64,000 nucleotides of DNA from contig NZ_CP025057.1 in the NCBI RefSeq assembly GCF_002813555.1, forward strand, positions 744,001-808,000. Direction: 5' to 3'. Each line of letters begins with the position of its first letter. Position 1 is the stretch's first letter. The notes beneath the pieces were generated by a model. That model worked only from the letters and a program-made list of their open reading frames with translations. It made no database searches and was not told where the DNA came from. The DNA is from Spiroplasma floricola 23-6 (GTDB taxonomy: Bacteria > Bacillota_I > Bacilli_A > Mycoplasmatales > Mycoplasmataceae). Shown here piece by piece: positions 49,956-60,702 of the stretch. Position numbers and translations under genes: made by a program.

Positions 49956-51299
49956 TTAATATAAAATACTTAAGTCCTCTAATTCAATTTTAAGACCTCT
50001 TAATGCTAATTGTGAATGTCTTTCATTATATAATATTGATATCATTTTATATTTATCTTTTTTTGTTGAATAATGAATTTTCTTATGACAATTAGGACAT
50101 AATGCTACATAATTTTCAATAACTTCTATTGAGTTTTTAAAATCCTCACTATAACCATGTGGAATTAAATGATGAATTTCAATATAATTTTCATTTGTAG
50201 TCTCTGATATAAAGTATTTACAATTATTATTATTTTCAAAATAGCACTTATTATTATAATAATTTCTAGCTATAGATTTCATTTTATTAAATTCTGTACG
50301 ATCTTTTCTAGATATTTTTACATACTTAATTTCTGCTTTTTCAATTGGCATTATAACAAGTTCCTGATTATTAATATTTTTATAATCAATAAAATTTACA
50401 ATAGATGTAAAATCTGAAAATAATTCAATAACTGATTCATTATATTCATTTAAAAAAGAGTCTCTTTCTAAAAAATTTATAATATATTTATAATCATTTT
50501 TCTTAAATATACTATATAAAGTTTTTACTGTTTCTTCAAGATTTAAATTTTCAAGAAAATTGATAATAAAATTATAAATAAAAAGTTCATCTTTAAATGT
50601 CTTTATAGTATAAACTCCTCCAGATTTCAATTTTTGGTCTAGAATCTCATTAATTTTTAGTAAATCTTCGGTTTCTAAATAATTAAAATTTCTCATAATT
50701 TCAGAAGTTAAATCAGAGAAATTAGAAAAATTCCAAAGCATAAATTCTAAACTTCTTACTTTTGAATTATTTTTTTTGGTATATACTTCATAAAATAAAT
50801 TACTAATTTTTTTATTAAAAATTTGAAATTCTTCAACACTTAAATTATTTTTAAAAACCTGAATTTTTTTTAAAATTTTTACAAAAAGTTTCTCATTATT
50901 TGCCATCATAAAATATAGTGTATATATTTTAGAGTCAAAATCTTTAAAATTTGAGTTTTGTTCAATTTTCAACAGTTCATTTTCATAAAAAATAGAATTT
51001 TTAGTGATAATCTCAAAATCATTTTCTTTTTTAGTTAAATTGTACTCTTTTCATTTTTTAATTGATTGTTTATGTTTATCTTGACCTGAACGTTGTTTTG
51101 GTCAATCTTTTACCTTTATATTTTGCAAAGTCTTTATTGTATCTATATTATGTTTAATGGATTCTAAAACTCTAAAGTTAGTTGAAAATATATTTGATAT
51201 TAAAGAAAGATTACTTGTTATCTTTGATGAAGTTCAAAATTCGCTTTTATCTTTAATAAATTCTTTATAATATTTATCTATTACTACGTTTGCAGACAT
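49956..51299 (-). CDS. HNH restriction endonuclease
   Basis: A 447-residue protein with a C-terminal HNH nuclease: CxnC pair Cys352/Cys360, IEIHHLIPHGY with His376/His377, Asn396, and LCPNCHKKIHY with Cys401, Cys404, His405. The N-terminal 330 residues are helical and have no recognised domain; they may bind DNA. It follows two D12-class adenine methylases and overlaps the second of them by 26 bases, so it is the restriction subunit. AAGGAG precedes the ATG. The recognition sequence is unknown. The reading continues through several TGA Trp codons, which would be stops in the standard code. Confidence 0.75.
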
Positions 51300-52299
51300 A
51301 TAAAATCTCCTTATGATCTATAAAATTTGTTTTACCACTATTAAATGACTTATATGGTTTTTCATAAATTTCTACTTTTCCATATTCTTCAAAAATTTCA
51401 ATAATATCCTGTTCTGTAATTTTATTATTTGAAGCTGTTGAAGATGCATTATAAGTATTATTATACGACATTAATATCACTTTACTTTTACTTGAATTGA
51501 TTAATTCTTTTAAAAAGTGTTTTGCCTTTGATCTTGAATATTCACTTTTTAAATGATCTCTCAAAAATTTCATCGATTTACCTTGAAATTCAGTTGGTTT
51601 ATTTCAAATTGCTATATTTTCTAATACATGATAAAAGTTTATATATTGTCTTGCATTGTAAGGTGGATCTAAATAAAGAATAGAGTTTTCTTGATTTAAA
51701 TTCTTTATTAATAAATTTGCATCCATATTAAAAGGAGTAATTTTTGAACTATATTTTTGAACAAATAAAGTTTTTAACTCTAAATTTTTATCAAAATGCT
51801 GGTTATTTAAAAAAGATTCATAATGTCCAACAGTATTTGCTATTTTATCTGCACCAAACATAAGACTTGTAATTAAATAATATTTTTCATCTTCATTTAT
51901 TATTTTACTTTTAAATTTTTTTTCAATATCTTCTCTTATTTCTCCAATTTTAAAAGCTTCAGTTTTACTAAAGTACCTATTTCCATAAATTTCACTAATA
52001 TAATTATCAAATAAGTATTCATATTTTTTGTTATTATATTTATCAATAATATTAGATAATTTTTCTTGATCAATGTTATCAAAACTATTAAATGCTCTAT
52101 AAATTACATAATTATGAAATAAATTATCATTTAAAATTGTATTATATCCTTTTTCTGCAAAATAAAAGCCAACAGCTCCTGTACCAGCAAAAATATCAAT
52201 AAATTCAGTATTTATATTCATTTCCTTTTCAATTGTTTCAAAAATTCAACTAGTTAATTTATTTTTATTACCAATATATCTCCTATTATTATATTTCAA
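51274..52299 (-). CDS. D12-class N6-adenine DNA methyltransferase 2
   Basis: A 341-residue Dam-like methylase. Motif X is RRYIGNKNKLTSW (residues 6-18), motif I FIDIFAGTGAVG (near 34-45), motif IV LYLDPPY (Asp211). The start was placed at the TTG at 52299, since an ATG at 52221 would remove motif X. It overlaps the upstream methylase by 11 bases and the nuclease gene by 26 bases. It methylates adenine at N6, probably on one strand of a non-palindromic site with its partner on the other. Confidence 0.8.
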
Positions 52300-53215
52300 A
52301 ATTCATCACCAACACTTCTTTATCTAACGTATATCTATTTTTTTTATTATAGCTACTTGAAATGTAATTTTTTTCAATTTCTTTAACTATTAAATTATTT
52401 CTTTTAATAAATTTTTTTAATTCAATATTAATTTTATCTCCTCTTTTAAGAATATTTGAAATTATAATTTTTTTATTATTGGCTAATATTTTTTTTTCAA
52501 TAAAAGCATAAAATTCAATTTCAGTATTAATATCTCATTCCTTATTATAAGTTGCTTCTGTTAACAAATATGGAGGATCAATATAAACTATATCTGAATC
52601 TAAAATCTTTTGATTAAGTCTTTCATCTCTAAAATCGAAATTATTTATATCTATTTTCATATTATTTGTCTTTAATTTGAAATTTTCAATTCTCTTAAAT
52701 GTGGCTTTATTAAAATCAGTTTTACCTACAGGAATATTATAATTACCAATAGAATTAAATCTAATTTCTCCATTAAAACCATAGATCTTTAGAACAAACA
52801 AAATAATAATTGCTTCTTCTGTAAATTTATCATTTAAAGAATTGTAGTAACTTCTTAACTTATTAAAAGATACAATATTTAATTCCTTTAATCCATTATT
52901 AGAAGTATTTTTTAGTTTACTTTTGTAAAATGAATAACTATTTCTAAAAGAATTTGTTAAATCAAATTTATGTATTACATTTTCTATATCTGAAACAATT
53001 TTATCCAATTTATTTTTAATTAAATACTTTAATATTTCAATAATGCTCTTATTTAAATCATTAATTATAATTTTTTTATTTCTCGAATTTATTCCCACAA
53101 CAGAACTACCACAAAAAAGATCTAAAATAACTTCATCATTTTTTATGTAATTATAAATTATATTCAATATTTGAAACTTATTTCCAGCATAACTCAAAGG
53201 ACTTTTAATAAACAT
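52289..53215 (-). CDS. D12-class N6-adenine DNA methyltransferase 1
   Basis: A 308-residue Dam-like methylase with motif X SPLSYAGNKFQIL (5-17), motif I LDLFCGSSVVG (31-41) and motif IV IVYIDPPY (DPPY at 213-216). It is the first gene of the three-gene R-M operon, with TAGGAG before the ATG. The two methylases are only distantly related to each other, as is common where each modifies a different strand of an asymmetric site. Confidence 0.82.
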
Positions 53216-53300: not shown

Positions 53301-53330
53301 AATAAAACGAGATTTTTACCTCGTTTTACT
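53301..53330 (-). terminator. Rho-independent terminator
   Basis: AAAACGAG / CTCGTTTT hairpin with an 8-base loop and T tract. It directly follows the coding remnant at 53333-53500 and is 260 bases from the end of the PD-(D/E)XK gene. Confidence 0.75.
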
Positions 53331-53591: not shown

Positions 53592-54560
53592 TTAATATAT
53601 TTGCATAATTGAGTTTAAATCATAACTTTTAATATTAAATAAATCAATATTAAAAGATATATTTTTGATTTTATTATCATATTCTTTGATATATGGTATT
53701 TCTTTAATATTAATAAACTTTATTTTTATTTCTTCTTCTGAAAATCTTATAAGATTTCTTTTATCATGATTTTCTTTGAAATCTGTAAAAAATTCTTTCA
53801 TCCCTAATGCTAATGAAGGAATAGATAAATATCAATCAATTAAATCAATTAAGGTTTTTCCACCTTTTCTTACCTCCGAAATTTTTATTGCAGCAAAATA
53901 ATCATTAATATTTTCATTTATTTGATGATTTTTCAAAGAAAAAAGATCTTCATCACTTGTAGTAGTTTTAACTTCTATATTTATTTTTTTATTATTATGT
54001 GTATTAATTTCAAAATCAGTTTTAGATTCAAATTTTTTAAAATTATTGTACTCTTCTATATGATATCCTTCTAAAAATTCTTTTAAATATTCTCCACTAT
54101 TTTTTAATATTAATAATTCTCCTATTAAACCTATTTGAATTTTTTTCTTAATTTTAAAGACTAATCCAAATATTGTTTCCAAATTAACTACAGTATCAAA
54201 AATTGTTTGAGATAAATCATCTATATTAGAAATAGTTTTAAATACTAAATCTACAAAGTATTTTTCCATTTTAGGTTGTAAAATTAATACTTCTGCATCA
54301 CAGTCTTCATGTCCTTCAACATCGATATTCATTGTTTGACTAGGAAATCCAGAAAGTTTTTCATCTCCTTCAATACCATTGGAAATTGATTTTATTGATG
54401 GATAATATGAAAAGTTAGGCTTTTTTAAACTTTTTATATTTTTTGGTAAATTTACATTTTTATAAATTGGTTTTAAAATAAAATATGTGCTTGACTCAGG
54501 TAAAAGAAATAAAGAATATTCTCCTATATCTTTAATTGCTATAACATTTAGTTTTTCCAT
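53592..54560 (-). CDS. PD-(D/E)XK nuclease, DUF4420 type
   Basis: A 322-residue protein with the PD-(D/E)XK nuclease core: Glu148 in GLIGELLIL, Asp182 in SKTDFEI, and Glu196-x-Lys198 in INIEVKTTTSDEDLF. The layout fits the DUF4420 (PD-(D/E)XK motif protein) family that accompanies Z1 helicase and MORC/MutL-like ATPase genes in ATP-dependent restriction-like systems. TAGGAG lies 8 bases before the ATG, inside the end of the Z1 gene region. It is the last gene of the operon and its probable cutting subunit. Confidence 0.8.
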
Positions 54561-54569
54561 TGTTTTCTC

Positions 54570-55988
54570 CTAATTTGTTCATCTTAAAGAGAATTTTTTA
54601 AACTCCTCTTTAATATCTTCTGATTTTTTATCATTATGAATAGAATCTTCTTTGTACATTTTTCTCAATTTATTTTCAATAATTTCAATATCTTTATAAA
54701 AACTAATTGCTTTTTTTGAAGTAAATATATTCATATCTTTTATATAAGAACTTCTATATCCAAATCATCTAGCTCTTTGGAGTAATGTATCAGCAGTTAA
54801 TTCATTAGAGTTTGAGTGATTTAACATAATTTCAAATAATAATTCTTCAAAAGTAAATCCTCTTGACAATAAATTACCTCCAATAATTATTTCAGGACAT
54901 TTTTCTCTTAAGTACTCTATTCCTTCTCTTACTTCTTTAATCTTCAACTTATTAATAATTTTTATTAAATCTGACTTAGTAGTTTTCATTGAAAAAGTAT
55001 CATTAAAATCACTTGACATTAAAGCAATAGATAAATCACTTACTGCATCTCTAAAAATTTTTTCTAATCATATAATATGATTTTTACCAACATCAATATT
55101 TATAAGAAACTGAAAATTTCTATTATATTGGATACACTTATTAAGAAATTTCAAAATAACTTCTTTTATAAAATATTTTAATTCATTTGATAACATCTTA
55201 TTTTTAAAACTAAAGACAATTTGATCTTTGAGCTCTACATATAAATTATTATTATTAAAAATTTTTAGTCCACAATATGAATTTGGAGATACAAGGGGTA
55301 TTAAAAAATCAGGTTTAATTCAATCAGTATAATGTGTTATATTTGCATAAGGTGTAGCAGTAATTTGAAAATATAACACATTTTTAAAGCCACAGTTAAT
55401 AATATTTTCAATATTATTATTTATTGATCTATTTTTTTTACCTTTCTCAGAAGAAGCTTCATCACATTCATCATCAATAATAACTATTTTAAATTCAGAT
55501 TTTTGATTCTGAGTCATTTCCTCTAAATTTATTAATATATTTTTTATATTTTGTTTTATGCCATATAAAAACTCTGTTTTATTATCATTTTGAAAAAAAT
55601 TACTTTTATTTGAAAAAGGCAAAAAACGACTTTTTTGATTTGCTTGTTTAAATCTATTTATATTTTGCTTATTAAGATTATTTTTAGTTCCAGTCAAAAT
55701 AATAAATTTTTTAAAATCATTATCCCTTAAAAAAGAAGTTAAAAATATAATATTATTTGTTTTACCAGATTGTACCTCACCCAGTAGAAGAAATTTTTGT
55801 ATTTTTTTTTCATAAGAAAGTTTTTCACTTATATTCTTTAAATTTACTTCTATAACATCATCAATAGTATTTTGACCATAAGTTTTATTTTCTCTTATAA
55901 ATTTTTCTCTAAGTTCTAAGTAATTCGCTCCTTTAGAAAAATCATTATAATTCTTTTTTTTAGCTAAACTTATTTGTATTCTACTCAC
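54570..55988 (-). CDS. Z1-domain superfamily II-type helicase/ATPase
   Basis: A 472-residue protein with Walker A LLLGEVQSGKTNN (near residue 70), Walker B VIIDDECDEAS, the helicase-like ITATPYAN, and the Z1 block GGNLLSRGFTFEELLF followed by ADTLLQRARWFGYR. It is shorter than most Z1 proteins I know of. The likely start is a GTG at 55988, overlapping the MORC gene by 8 bases; a TTG at 56003 is in frame. In related loci the Z1 protein is thought to move along or remodel DNA for the nuclease. Confidence 0.82.
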
Positions 55989-57768
55989 CTTCAATACCCT
56001 CAATCAATTCTTTAAATCTTTTATTTTTTTCTTGATTAGTTTTATATTTAATCAATTCACACATAAGTAGTTTTATTAATGGATTAAATAATATTGAAAA
56101 ATGTTCATCTTTTAGATTATTTTTAAATCCATAGAATTCTTTGTTAAGAACAATAACAAATAATATTGAGTTATCTTCACAAGGTAAAGCTCTTGTTTTA
56201 AATAACTTATGTTTATTTCCAAATTGACCTTCTGGATGGCAAACTATTTTAAAAGCACTTTCTTCTTTTTCATTTACAACTATAAAACCATTTCTAAATC
56301 TTTCACCATCTGTATCATTTATTTTTAATTCTTCTGTAATTACAGAATGATTCTCTAAAATTTTATTTTTATTAATTTCATTTGCGAATCTATCAATTTC
56401 TTGTTGAAACAGCTTATCTTCAAGAAGCTGATCATTTTTATAAAAAATAATATCCAATATTTTATCAAAAAGTGGAGACAGATAATTTTTAAAAATGTCT
56501 GATAAAGTTTTTTCAATATCCTCTTTAACTGTTCCATGAAATCCCATTTTATTATTATCCACTCTAAATATTTTCTTATTATTAAGGTCAATTTCGCCAA
56601 TAAATCTTTTAGTTACTTTATAACTACTATCACTTAGGGCTTTTGGATAAGAAAGTCATGTTAAATTACTCTTTTCAGAATTTGGACCTGAAATAATAGC
56701 TCTATCATCTTGATAAACTGTTAAACCATTATATTTTAGTAAACTACTATTATTACCTATAAAACCAAAAGTGAAGGGTATCCTTTCATTTTCATAATAG
56801 TTATAGGGTAATCTAAAAAAAGTTTTAAATTTAAGTTCTTCTTGATTTTCAAATTTTTCAATTATCATTCCATAGGTTATATCTTCTAAACCCTCAATTA
56901 CATTGTTTCAAGAATCTGCAAATGCATTTTTAATTTCTTTCATTGATTTAATATAAAATTTTGATTTATTAATATTAATTTTTTCCTTATCAGATACTTT
57001 AAACTCATAATCCTGTCTTTCTTTGGAATTTTTTATATACATATCAGGTATTTTTGATTTTGTTATTTCAACAGGAACTTTATTTGGCATTTCTTCATCA
57101 CCATCTTCATTAATATAACTCATATTTATAGATAAAAAGTTTTTCTTTATATATCTTGAATATCTACAAGCTAACTGTTCTTCTAAAGCTTTACCCTCGT
57201 TTTTAGTACCTTTATTAAACATTCTTTTTTCATATCTTTCTGAGTGAACAGTATCTATATGAAATTTATCTATTTTTATAATTGTTCCATGATCATAATT
57301 GAATTGTATACCAGATTCCTTTTTAATGTTTATATCCTTAGTATCATAAAAATTAAAATTTTTTCCCTTTAATTTGTCTATATCAAGATTTATCATATAT
57401 GGAAAATCATCTTCAATACTTTTCGTAAAAATTCTTAATCTTTTACCAAATCATATTGCTGCCATTTTCATTCCAACTCCAAACATATTTAAAGAGTTTC
57501 CTTGTTCACTTTCATCTTTTCCATTTCTAATTGCAATACTTCTATTTTTATAAGCAATACCAGCTGCATTATCAATTATATAAATTGCCTTTTCTAACAT
57601 GTTAACAATTATTTTAACTTCAACATATTCAAAATTATTATCTATTGCACTTTGAATTGAATTATCTATAAATTCAGAAATCATATATATATGACTTGTT
57701 GTTTTATCAATGTAACCAAGAAATTCTCTATTCGTTCTTGGTATTTCATTTTCATTTATTTTACTCAT
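55981..57768 (-). CDS. MORC/MutL-like GHKL ATPase
   Basis: A 595-residue protein with a GHKL ATPase head: N box SEFIDNSIQSA (catalytic Glu32, Asn36), IIDNAAGI (G1, 65-71) and NMFGVGMKMAA (G2, 94-104), followed by a transducer-like region and a long C-terminal part. Such MORC-like ATPases form DNA clamps. Its ATG abuts the stop codon of the DndC gene. In bacteria this family is linked to Z1 helicases and PD-(D/E)XK nucleases, as here. Confidence 0.85.
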
Positions 57769-59202
57769 TTAATTGTACCCCTTTATTTGCTCAAACAATC
57801 CACTAATCTTTTCATCAAGATACCTATCATTTTCTAATGCTTCCATTACTATTTTAAAAATTTCTTTTATTTTATTTATTTCCTCATCTGAAATAATCTC
57901 AATTTTATATTTCTTCATCGCTTTTTTTAATTTAAGAATTTCTATAAGTAGTTCTTTTCTATAGTCTAATGTATATGGACCTAAACCAACTATTGATAAT
58001 TTATCATTATCTAAGTTTTTGTCTAATTTAATTACAAAATTGAATAATGGTATTTCTCCCTCTACATAAGGATTTATTTTACGTTGATCAACTTTTTTTC
58101 GATATTCTGATTCACTAATTATTTTAAAAACTTTTTTATTATATTTTAATTTTGTAAAATCTTCGTTAATTTCACCAAATATAATCTCTTCTCTTCCCTC
58201 TTTTTTTGGTAAATAATAAATTCCATTTTTAAACTTTAAATCCATATATCTATATTTAACTAAGGTTACAATTTTTTTATTTTTCATAATTCTTAAGGAA
58301 CCATGATATCTATTTTTTAGTAAATCTCTTTCTTTCATTAATTTTTCTCTAAAACTCATAAGTGGTTGTAGTCAATCTTGACCTGAATTTATAAAACCCT
58401 GAAGTGATTTGTCTTGAGTAACAACAGGACAAAGTCAACAACCTCATCTAGAATTTCCACAACCCTTTTGCAATTTATCATCTAAACTCGATGGACATTC
58501 TCCTGTTCCCACCGATGAATCTTCATAAAGAATAGATAATTTATCATTATTTTTTTTAAAAAAATTAATATTGCTTTCAGCTAAATATTTTCATATATCA
58601 TAAAGTTGAAATTCTTCAATTGGTGAGAATATATATTTTCCATTAGTATTATTAATTCTCAAATCTGAATCTTCAATTTTGGTTTTATCCATTTTTATAT
58701 CTCTACTTAAAGATTCTCCTTTACGAACACCTAAAACAGTAAGTATTTCTTTTTTACTTTTTTTAGATATTTCTTCCATATAATCATTCATAGGTTTAAT
58801 TTTTAATCTATCAGTACATCATCTAAAACTTTGATTAGGTAGTGGATATCCTCTACCTATTAAATTTACTCAAAAAGTCTCATTAATATCTGGTGTAACT
58901 TTAAATACTTCCACAGGTAGTTGTTTTTCATCTGCATAAGTTTGCAAAATTTCTAGTGAATTATTTAATTGTTCCAATACAATTGGGTTTTCAATTAAAG
59001 TATCAGAACTAACAATATAAATTTTATTTTTTAATTTTGTTTTTATCTCTGTTAATGATTCTAATATTATTTGAACTAATACTGATGAATCTTTTCCACC
59101 AGAAAAACCAATCATTCAATCATAATTACATTCTCTATAAACTTTTTTTATTTTTTCTTTTACTATCTTAACTTTTTTAAGATATATATCTTCTCTGTTC
59201 AT
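57769..59202 (-). CDS. dndC: DndC-like sulfur-transfer (PAPS reductase-family) enzyme
   Basis: A 477-residue protein of the adenine-nucleotide alpha hydrolase / PAPS reductase superfamily. The P-loop-like SGGKDSS is at residues 34-40; RWCTDRLKIKP follows; the DndC-type cysteine block is GECPSS and then CGNSRWGCWLCPVVTQDKS. In Dnd systems DndC activates DNA for phosphorothioate insertion. None of dndB, dndD or dndE is in the window; a cellular cysteine desulfurase could replace dndA. It lies between the 58-residue gene and the MORC gene, all in tight succession. Confidence 0.85.
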
Positions 59203-59203
59203 T

Positions 59204-59380
59204 TTAATAACCCTTATTAGTTTTTTTATTATTATACCTATCATAGTATGCAATTGCAAAAATATTTTTATTTATATTTTTCATATACAATTCCTCTTTC
59301 TTTTCTAAAGAATAGAATAAAACTGATCTTATTCATACTAAACTAAGATTATTTATTGATAAACTTAATATTTTTTTCAT
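59204..59380 (-). CDS. Small protein leading the DndC-MORC-Z1 operon, 58 aa
   Basis: A 58-residue reading (MKKILSLSINNLSLVWIRSV, then a charged part with KNINKNIFAIAYYDRY) with an excellent ribosome site, AAAAGGAGGAAA, directly before its ATG. Its stop codon is 1 base before the DndC ATG, so the two are translationally coupled. One Trp is TGA-coded. It has no recognised family. It may be a regulator or subunit of the system, or only a leader for coupling. Confidence 0.6.
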
Positions 59381-59551: not shown

Positions 59552-59881
59552 ATGGCAAAAAAAGGACAAAAGTTTAGAAAGTGAACTCAAGAAGAAAAAG
59601 AAAAAATTATTGAATTAAGTTTGAATGGTTATTCTCTAAAGGAAATAGCATTAAAATTTAACTCAACTACAGGATCAATTGGAACAATAATAAACAAATA
59701 CAAAAATACAGATATTGGTGATTCAAAAACTCGTTTACCTTATAAAATAGATTACAGTATATCTCAAAAGGCAAATGATCTGTTTGTAGGAATTCTATTT
59801 GATTACAATAAGGAATTAATTAAGGAGAATGATATTTTAAAAAAGCAATGAGCCTCCAAGGCCAAAACCAAAAAGAAATAG
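59552..59881 (+). CDS. IS3 transposase OrfA
   Basis: A 109-residue protein with a helix-turn-helix (SLNGYSLKEIALKFNSTTGS, residues about 24-43) that binds the IS ends, and a C-terminal coiled part. AAAGGAT precedes the ATG. Translation ends in TAG after one TGA Trp; a -1 frameshift at 59839-59845 gives the OrfAB fusion. Confidence 0.8.
59839..59845 (+). other. Programmed -1 frameshift site
   Basis: A AAA AAG heptamer in the OrfA zero frame (TTA AAA AAG). A one-base backward slip leads to AAA GCA ATG, the frame of OrfB. This is the classical IS3 signal. Confidence 0.8.
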
Positions 59882-60702
59882 TTCAACAATTATTGATAAA
59901 TACCAAGAGCAATAGAACAATGATTTGTAAAATTTTAAATATTAATAGAACATCAACATATAAAAAAAATAAAACTTTAATGAATTTCCTGGATGATACA
60001 AGAATTATGAATTTAGTTATTTCAGAAATTGAAAGGAATAATTTCCTTAGTGCTTATAGTGCTAAAAGATGAGCCCTATATTTTAAATTAAATTATATTG
60101 ACCCTTTCAGAATTAATCATAAAAAATTAGAACGTATATTTAAAAAATTTAATCATATTGCATATTACATTAAGAAACAATCTAAACATGAGATTAAAAG
60201 ATATAACGAAACTATTAGAAAGAATTATTTAAAAGAAGCAAAAGAAATTGGTTTTGAAAATATTTGAACTAGTGATATAACTGAATTTTCAGTTAAAACA
60301 AAAAAAGGTTATATTTGCACAGTTCAAGATAATTTAACTGGAGAAATAATAGGAAAATCTAAAAGAATTGATAATCAAAAAACAGATTTTGTTCTTGAAG
60401 CTGTAGAAATGGCATATAAAAATAAAAAATATTTAGGTTCAATATTATTACATTCAGATAATGGAAATCAATATACCTCTCTGGATTACATAAGTTTATG
60501 TAATGATTTACAAATTATTAGAAGCTATTCAAAACCAGGAACACCTCATCATAATGGTAAACATGAAAGTTTTCATGGTCGTTTAAAAGATGAAACTATA
60601 AGAACATGTCATATTGAAAACATTAATCAATGTATGGAAATAGCATGAGCATGATTGGACTTTTATAATAATGATAGAATTAGAATGAATAAAAAATGAT
60701 AA
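59848..60702 (+). CDS. IS3 transposase OrfB (DDE integrase)
   Basis: A 284-residue catalytic part with the DDE triad: Asp143 in WTSDITEF, Asp204 in LHSDNGNQYTS, and Glu240 in HHNGKHESFHGRLKDE. It resembles the IS150 subgroup. It ends at RIRMNKKW, so the usual final SPxxYR-like stretch is missing; the stop is followed by a run of A. The element may thus be slightly truncated at its 3' end or simply variant. Confidence 0.85.

Follow-up and report, generated by a model that had tools for sequence, protein, structure and literature searches.

The operon analyzed here in Spiroplasma floricola 23-6 raises the question of what a DndC-type sulfurtransferase does inside a restriction module that lacks DndD and DndE. 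The window, i.e., the whole stretch of 64,000 nucleotides that was analyzed (NZ_CP025057.1, positions 744,001 to 808,000), belongs to a mollicute genome of 1.284 Mb in one contig that reads TGA as tryptophan (translation table 4). Translation of the window with table 11 was rejected, as it gave broken open reading frames that were restored by reading TGA as tryptophan. Four genes on the minus strand at 53592-59202, packed end to end, encode DndC, a MORC ATPase, a Z1 helicase, and a DUF4420 PD-(D/E)XK nuclease (Table 1). All four frames are intact under table 4 with zero internal stops, and the catalytic residues are conserved in all four proteins. The start codon of the Z1 gene produces an 8-base overlap with the MORC stop, and the DUF4420 gene starts after a 9-base gap 3' of Z1. 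The DndC-MORC-Z1-DUF4420 operon described in the earlier note is thereby confirmed; of the five packed genes that it had counted, these four are intact and packed, and the 58-residue protein, which is not conserved, is to be dropped. The latter frame probably does not belong to the system despite its good ribosome-binding site, because no relative has a counterpart upstream of dndC and because a promoter-like site for dndC (59260-59231) lies within it, just upstream of that gene.

Table 1. Features of the DndC-MORC-Z1-DUF4420 operon and its borders (window positions).
Feature	Position	Strand	Description	Basis
DndC	57769-59202	-	PP-loop sulfurtransferase, PAPS-reductase superfamily, 477 aa	TIGR03183, PADLOC DndC, alignment, AF2 model
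MORC-type GHKL ATPase	55981-57768	-	595 aa	PF13589, ATPase residues, Iyer 2008 motif
Z1-domain SF2 helicase/ATPase	54570-55988	-	472 aa, GTG start	PF10593, invariant motifs, Iyer 2008 motif
DUF4420 PD-(D/E)XK nuclease	53592-54560	-	322 aa	PF14390, conserved residues, predicted core
58-aa ORF ahead of dndC	59204-59380	-	without relatives; promoter-like site inside	
Terminator-like hairpin	53303-53328	not assigned	between the operon and the downstream D12 methylase operon	

Directly upstream of the operon lies an IS3-type insertion element (59552-60702) with two overlapping frames of the frameshift type; ahead of it stand a long run of A and a run of C.

The MORC gene matched HATPase_c_3 (PF13589) at 5e-12, and the ATP motifs of its product were identified as the N-box (E32, DN35-36) and G1/G2 (D66..G70; GxGxK 97-101), with the ATPase residues invariant in seven relatives. 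Its S5 motif, GLTVYQDDRAI, fits the family-defining GhXhhpXXRhl. The Z1 protein matched PF10593 (1.4e-22) and contains the motifs GEVQSGKT, IDDE, TATP, and DTLLQRARWFG, all invariant in the alignment, the last of which fits the DThhQXuRhFG of Iyer, Abhiman and Aravind (2008; PMC2292703). Because the MORC S5 and Z1 motifs match, the operon belongs, by the criteria of that paper, to its third operon type, composed of a MORC protein, a Z1-type SFII helicase, and an RE-fold nuclease, in which a DNA methylase is frequent and not obligatory. The same three proteins, the same motifs (including the E-D-ExK of the nuclease), and the same tight packing are found in both, whereas the operon in the window has DndC instead of a DNA methylase. 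The text of that paper mentions neither a PAPS reductase nor phosphorothioation. The match of the nuclease to DUF4420 (PF14390; 3.9e-6, 26.7 bits) is slightly below the 27-bit cut-off, and its fold was not confirmed, since a Foldseek search with the model gave no significant match; the evidence for a nuclease is therefore the Pfam match, the conserved residues, and the predicted topology. The E-D-ExK motif (E148, D182, E196-x-K198) is conserved in relatives, with D182 invariant and E148 and K198 present in at least 90% of 23 homologues, and the structure model predicts an alpha-beta-beta-beta-alpha-beta core around these residues.

The DndC protein scored 339 bits against TIGR03183, over the curated cut-off of 290, and matched the PADLOC DndC profile at 3e-108. 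Its SGGKDSS P-loop and the cysteines C129, C236, C248, C255, and C258 are all intact, in agreement with the complete motifs read initially from the sequence. However, the protein matches TIGR03183 only up to position 381 of 447, and the same shortening was found in the other MORC-linked DndCs, in which the match ends at positions 361-381 versus 446-447 in canonical proteins. The GPxTL motif is followed by 52-83 residues in the MORC-linked DndCs versus 130-153 in those canonical sequences where the motif could be located. All of the MORC-linked proteins keep the P-loop and the five cysteines, the catalytic residues remain conserved at identities as low as 33%, and RWGCW replaces RFGCW without exception in the set compared. 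The missing tail matches the region reported as the DndD interface of DndC, namely residues 433-482 and the very C-terminal helix (2025 study, PMC12193691), so that the lost part is the DndD dock. As judged from sequence, MORC-linked DndC is thus a protein without the C-terminal DndD-docking tail that retains the sulfur-transfer core. In a tree of 82 DndCs, which carries a warning for AT-rich composition, the eight MORC-linked proteins form one clade (SH-aLRT 99). The AF2 model of DndC (pLDDT 87.7) structurally matches PAPS reductases and [4Fe-4S] tRNA thiolases, including TtuA and NcsA. A single IscS-type cysteine desulfurase gene is present in the genome (C1:990935-992053).

Genome-wide searches with TIGR03185 for DndD and PF08870 for DndE detected neither protein in any of the eight genomes with a MORC-linked DndC. 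In all seven control genomes, which are the other DndC-bearing genomes drawn from the class, the same searches detected both, with the genes adjoining dndC. The absence of dndD and dndE from the operon, noted from the outset, thus extends to the entire genome, and genes elsewhere that could pair with this DndC, which the earlier note had named as a refutation of its reading, were looked for and not found. In G060 there was one stray 17-bit fragment match to the ABC ATPase model TIGR03185, far below the cut-off. An assembly or search artefact was considered as a cause of the absence, and is contradicted by the near-complete state of the eight genomes (seven in a single contig, one in two contigs) and by the seven detected controls. 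Among the best 80 DndC loci from outside (GTDB contigs), 79 have DndD adjacent and 78 DndE, the single exception, L036, resembling a prophage-borne orphan. Rakesh et al. (2024; PMC10853773), whose survey of Dnd genes is the most thorough, described DndD-DndE as an obligate core and ascribed DndC without them to poor assemblies. Current work holds DndD-DndE to be indispensable for DndC-type phosphorothioation; the eight near-complete genomes studied here have a tail-less DndC in another restriction module.

DndC was found in 8 of 320 Mycoplasmatales genomes, belonging to three genera and two families. The gene-order search that the earlier note had proposed placed dndC, in all eight, in one cluster with MORC, Z1, and a DUF4420 or similar PD-(D/E)XK gene. 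The order DndC-MORC-Z1-DUF4420 is shared by the window, G035, G032, and G033, and G060 has a similar layout in which the nuclease is short and a DUF262 gene is added; the order MORC-Z1-DUF4420-DndC-X-DUF262 is found in G048, G036, and G028. Distances between genes range from -65 to +30 bases in the six relatives' loci that were measured, and dndC overlaps or abuts the module in each. The eight genomes are related and represent about two to three independent cases, not eight. By our own arithmetic, about 1% of such genomes would have a DndC at most 6 kb from a Z1 gene through chance alone. Chance is thus far from explaining even two or three independent cases, and the recurrence of the linkage in all eight DndC-bearing genomes of the order likewise argues against a random association. 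No MORC-linked DndC was found outside the Mycoplasmatales in evenly drawn class and phylum samples or beside Z1 genes of viral contigs, and none of the 80 best outside DndC loci (GTDB contigs) has Z1 beside DndC.

The position taken by dndC was compared with that of modification genes in some 40 other Z1 loci across the Mycoplasmatales. A C5-cytosine methylase gene adjoins the MORC-Z1 module in 14 of them (8 checked against PF00145), and an adenine-type methylase in 4, in line with the original proposal that DndC stands in the place of the methylase. In seven further loci the gene is that of a distant PAPS-reductase-family protein containing SGGKDS; it runs in line with the module in five and is divergent in two. 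This PP-loop enzyme, which accompanies MORC-Z1-DUF4420 in another Mycoplasmatales family (L138, L139, L141, L161-L164), apparently represents another sulfur-type enzyme that occupies the methylase slot. The DndC-linked Z1 genes fall in at least two places of the Z1 tree and came together in 0 of 200 bootstrap trees. The Z1 tree thus requires DndC to have joined at least two MORC-Z1 lineages, and, since the DndCs nevertheless form one clade, DndC has moved between modules as a part. Around the DndD-DndE core, DndC and C5 methylase are already known to replace each other (PMC10853773), and in type 4 BREX a PAPS reductase and a methylase do so (PMC12839542); here such an exchange is seen around MORC-Z1, and for a DndC without DndD and DndE.

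The linkage in eight of eight genomes, the absence of DndD and DndE, and the C5 methylase in the sibling slot support the initial reading of the locus as a combined modification-restriction operon. We consider it probable, although by no means settled, that this is a restriction system with an exchangeable modification part, in which DndC and IscS make a sulfur mark without DndD and DndE and MORC-Z1-DUF4420 attacks unmarked DNA. The housekeeping IscS would hand sulfur to DndC, as in Dnd systems without DndA, and DndC would put the mark, most likely a phosphorothioate, on host DNA unaided by DndD and DndE. The MORC ATPase may clamp or loop DNA, as proposed by Iyer et al. (2008), the Z1 helicase would translocate along it, and the DUF4420 nuclease would cut DNA without the mark. 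For canonical DndC, DndD/DndE provide ATP-driven handling of DNA, a task that MORC and/or Z1 would then probably take over. The existence and chemistry of the sulfur mark, the way the proteins share the work, the direction of control, and the restriction activity are all inferred. Against this reading, nothing that we found shows MORC or Z1 able to replace DndD-DndE, and there are no modification or restriction data. To our knowledge, phosphorothioation in all studied systems needs an ATPase or DNA-scanning partner (DndD-DndE, or SspC with SspB).

The nature of the mark is addressed by the DUF262 genes, which are present in four of the eight DndC-MORC operons, with DGQQR and a P-x-(F/Y)-Q-R patch, and absent from the operon in the window. 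DUF262 is the phosphorothioate-sensing domain of SspE and DndI, and SspE requires phosphorothioate for its activity (PMC11662687). By this analogy, the presence of DUF262 in half of the operons leans towards phosphorothioate but is not specific, as proteins with this domain also accompany non-sulfur systems and are present in two sibling MORC-Z1 loci that lack DndC.

DndC could instead thiolate a DNA base, e.g., the position methylated by the sibling C5 methylase, rather than the backbone, and the operon would still be a modification-restriction system. This possibility, which we regard as unlikely without dismissing it, draws on the slot of base methylases that DndC occupies, on the use of the same slot by a second PP-loop family that is kin to base-thiolating or PAPS-reducing enzymes, on the tRNA thiolases among the best structural matches, and on the loss of the DndD/DndE backbone machinery; however, phosphorothioating DndC has the same catalytic core and five cysteines, and half of the operons have a DUF262 gene of the phosphorothioate-sensing type. 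We know of no DNA base thiolation by the DndC family. More doubtful still is the proposition that MORC-linked DndC produces no backbone phosphorothioate and instead directly replaces cytosine methylation by a thiolated base or some other sulfur mark; if true, this would be a kind of DNA modification so far undescribed among restriction systems.

We give even less credence to the sulfur mark being a licence rather than a shield, such that DndC-marked self DNA keeps MORC-Z1-DUF4420 (and DUF262 where present) inactive or switches it on. Such control would be consistent with the DUF262 genes and their sequence patches in four operons and with the dependence of SspE on phosphorothioate, but the operon in the window has no such gene, and MORC-Z1-DUF4420 accompanied by methylases fits classical restriction.

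A separate restriction-modification trio of type IIS-like composition, with two D12 adenine methylases and an HNH protein, lies 377 bases downstream of the operon (49956-53215), and a homologous trio, with methylases about 49-53% identical, flanks the operon of G033 (L012) on the opposite side. The D12 methylases were rejected as part of the system on account of the terminator-like hairpin in between and of the lack of any nearby methylase in three of the eight DndC-MORC loci. That DndC is a decayed or unrelated passenger of a defence island, where unrelated systems gather, and that the module has a different modification partner, e.g., these neighbors, is very improbable given the same two facts, the overlapping or abutting position of dndC in every relative measured, its conserved catalytic residues, and its association with two different Z1 lineages.

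The operon also differs from the known systems that it resembles. With DndABCDE it shares the DndC core with the PP-loop and five cysteines and an available IscS, but it has no DndD, DndE, or docking tail and has RWGCW instead of RFGCW. The MZA anti-phage system likewise combines a GHKL ATPase with a Z1 protein; however, the scores against MzaB and MzaC (21 and 69 bits) were far from the cut-offs (850 and 1500 bits, respectively), and no operon protein matched AIPR (MzaE). In SspABCD-SspE and type 4 BREX, a PAPS-reductase-like enzyme also replaces a methylase, and SspE has a DUF262 sensor, as do half of the DndC-MORC operons, whereas the enzyme here is DndC rather than SspD/BrxP, and MORC-Z1 takes the place of BrxC/PglZ. 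A search for DUF4007 (SspB) matched none of the eight genomes, nor did it match any positive control. We found no description of DndC paired with MORC or Z1 in the literature searched, from which most subscription papers and preprints were outside the scope, so that prior notice is not excluded.

We class the locus as a MORC-Z1 restriction operon in which a sulfur enzyme would serve for modification, and it points to a new sulfur-marked DNA defence. If DndC marks DNA, the operon would reveal a minimal sulfur-transfer machine, demonstrate that MORC-Z1 restriction modules can swap methyl for sulfur marks, and offer a way to approach the reading of marks on DNA by the MORC ATPases of prokaryotes.

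Several observations concern related loci. Two MORC-Z1 loci, L145 and L153, have a DUF262 gene ahead of MORC, and the protein in the nuclease position has a degenerate ExK in L153 and no Pfam match in L145, as if DUF262 had replaced the nuclease. Phage- or prophage-borne DndCs without adjacent DndD/DndE were found in L036, L189, L191, L201, L202, and L204, and those of L036, L201, and L204 also have a short C-terminal tail. Weak GHKL/MORC-like genes were observed near canonical dndCDE operons at L061:16025 and L196:12961.
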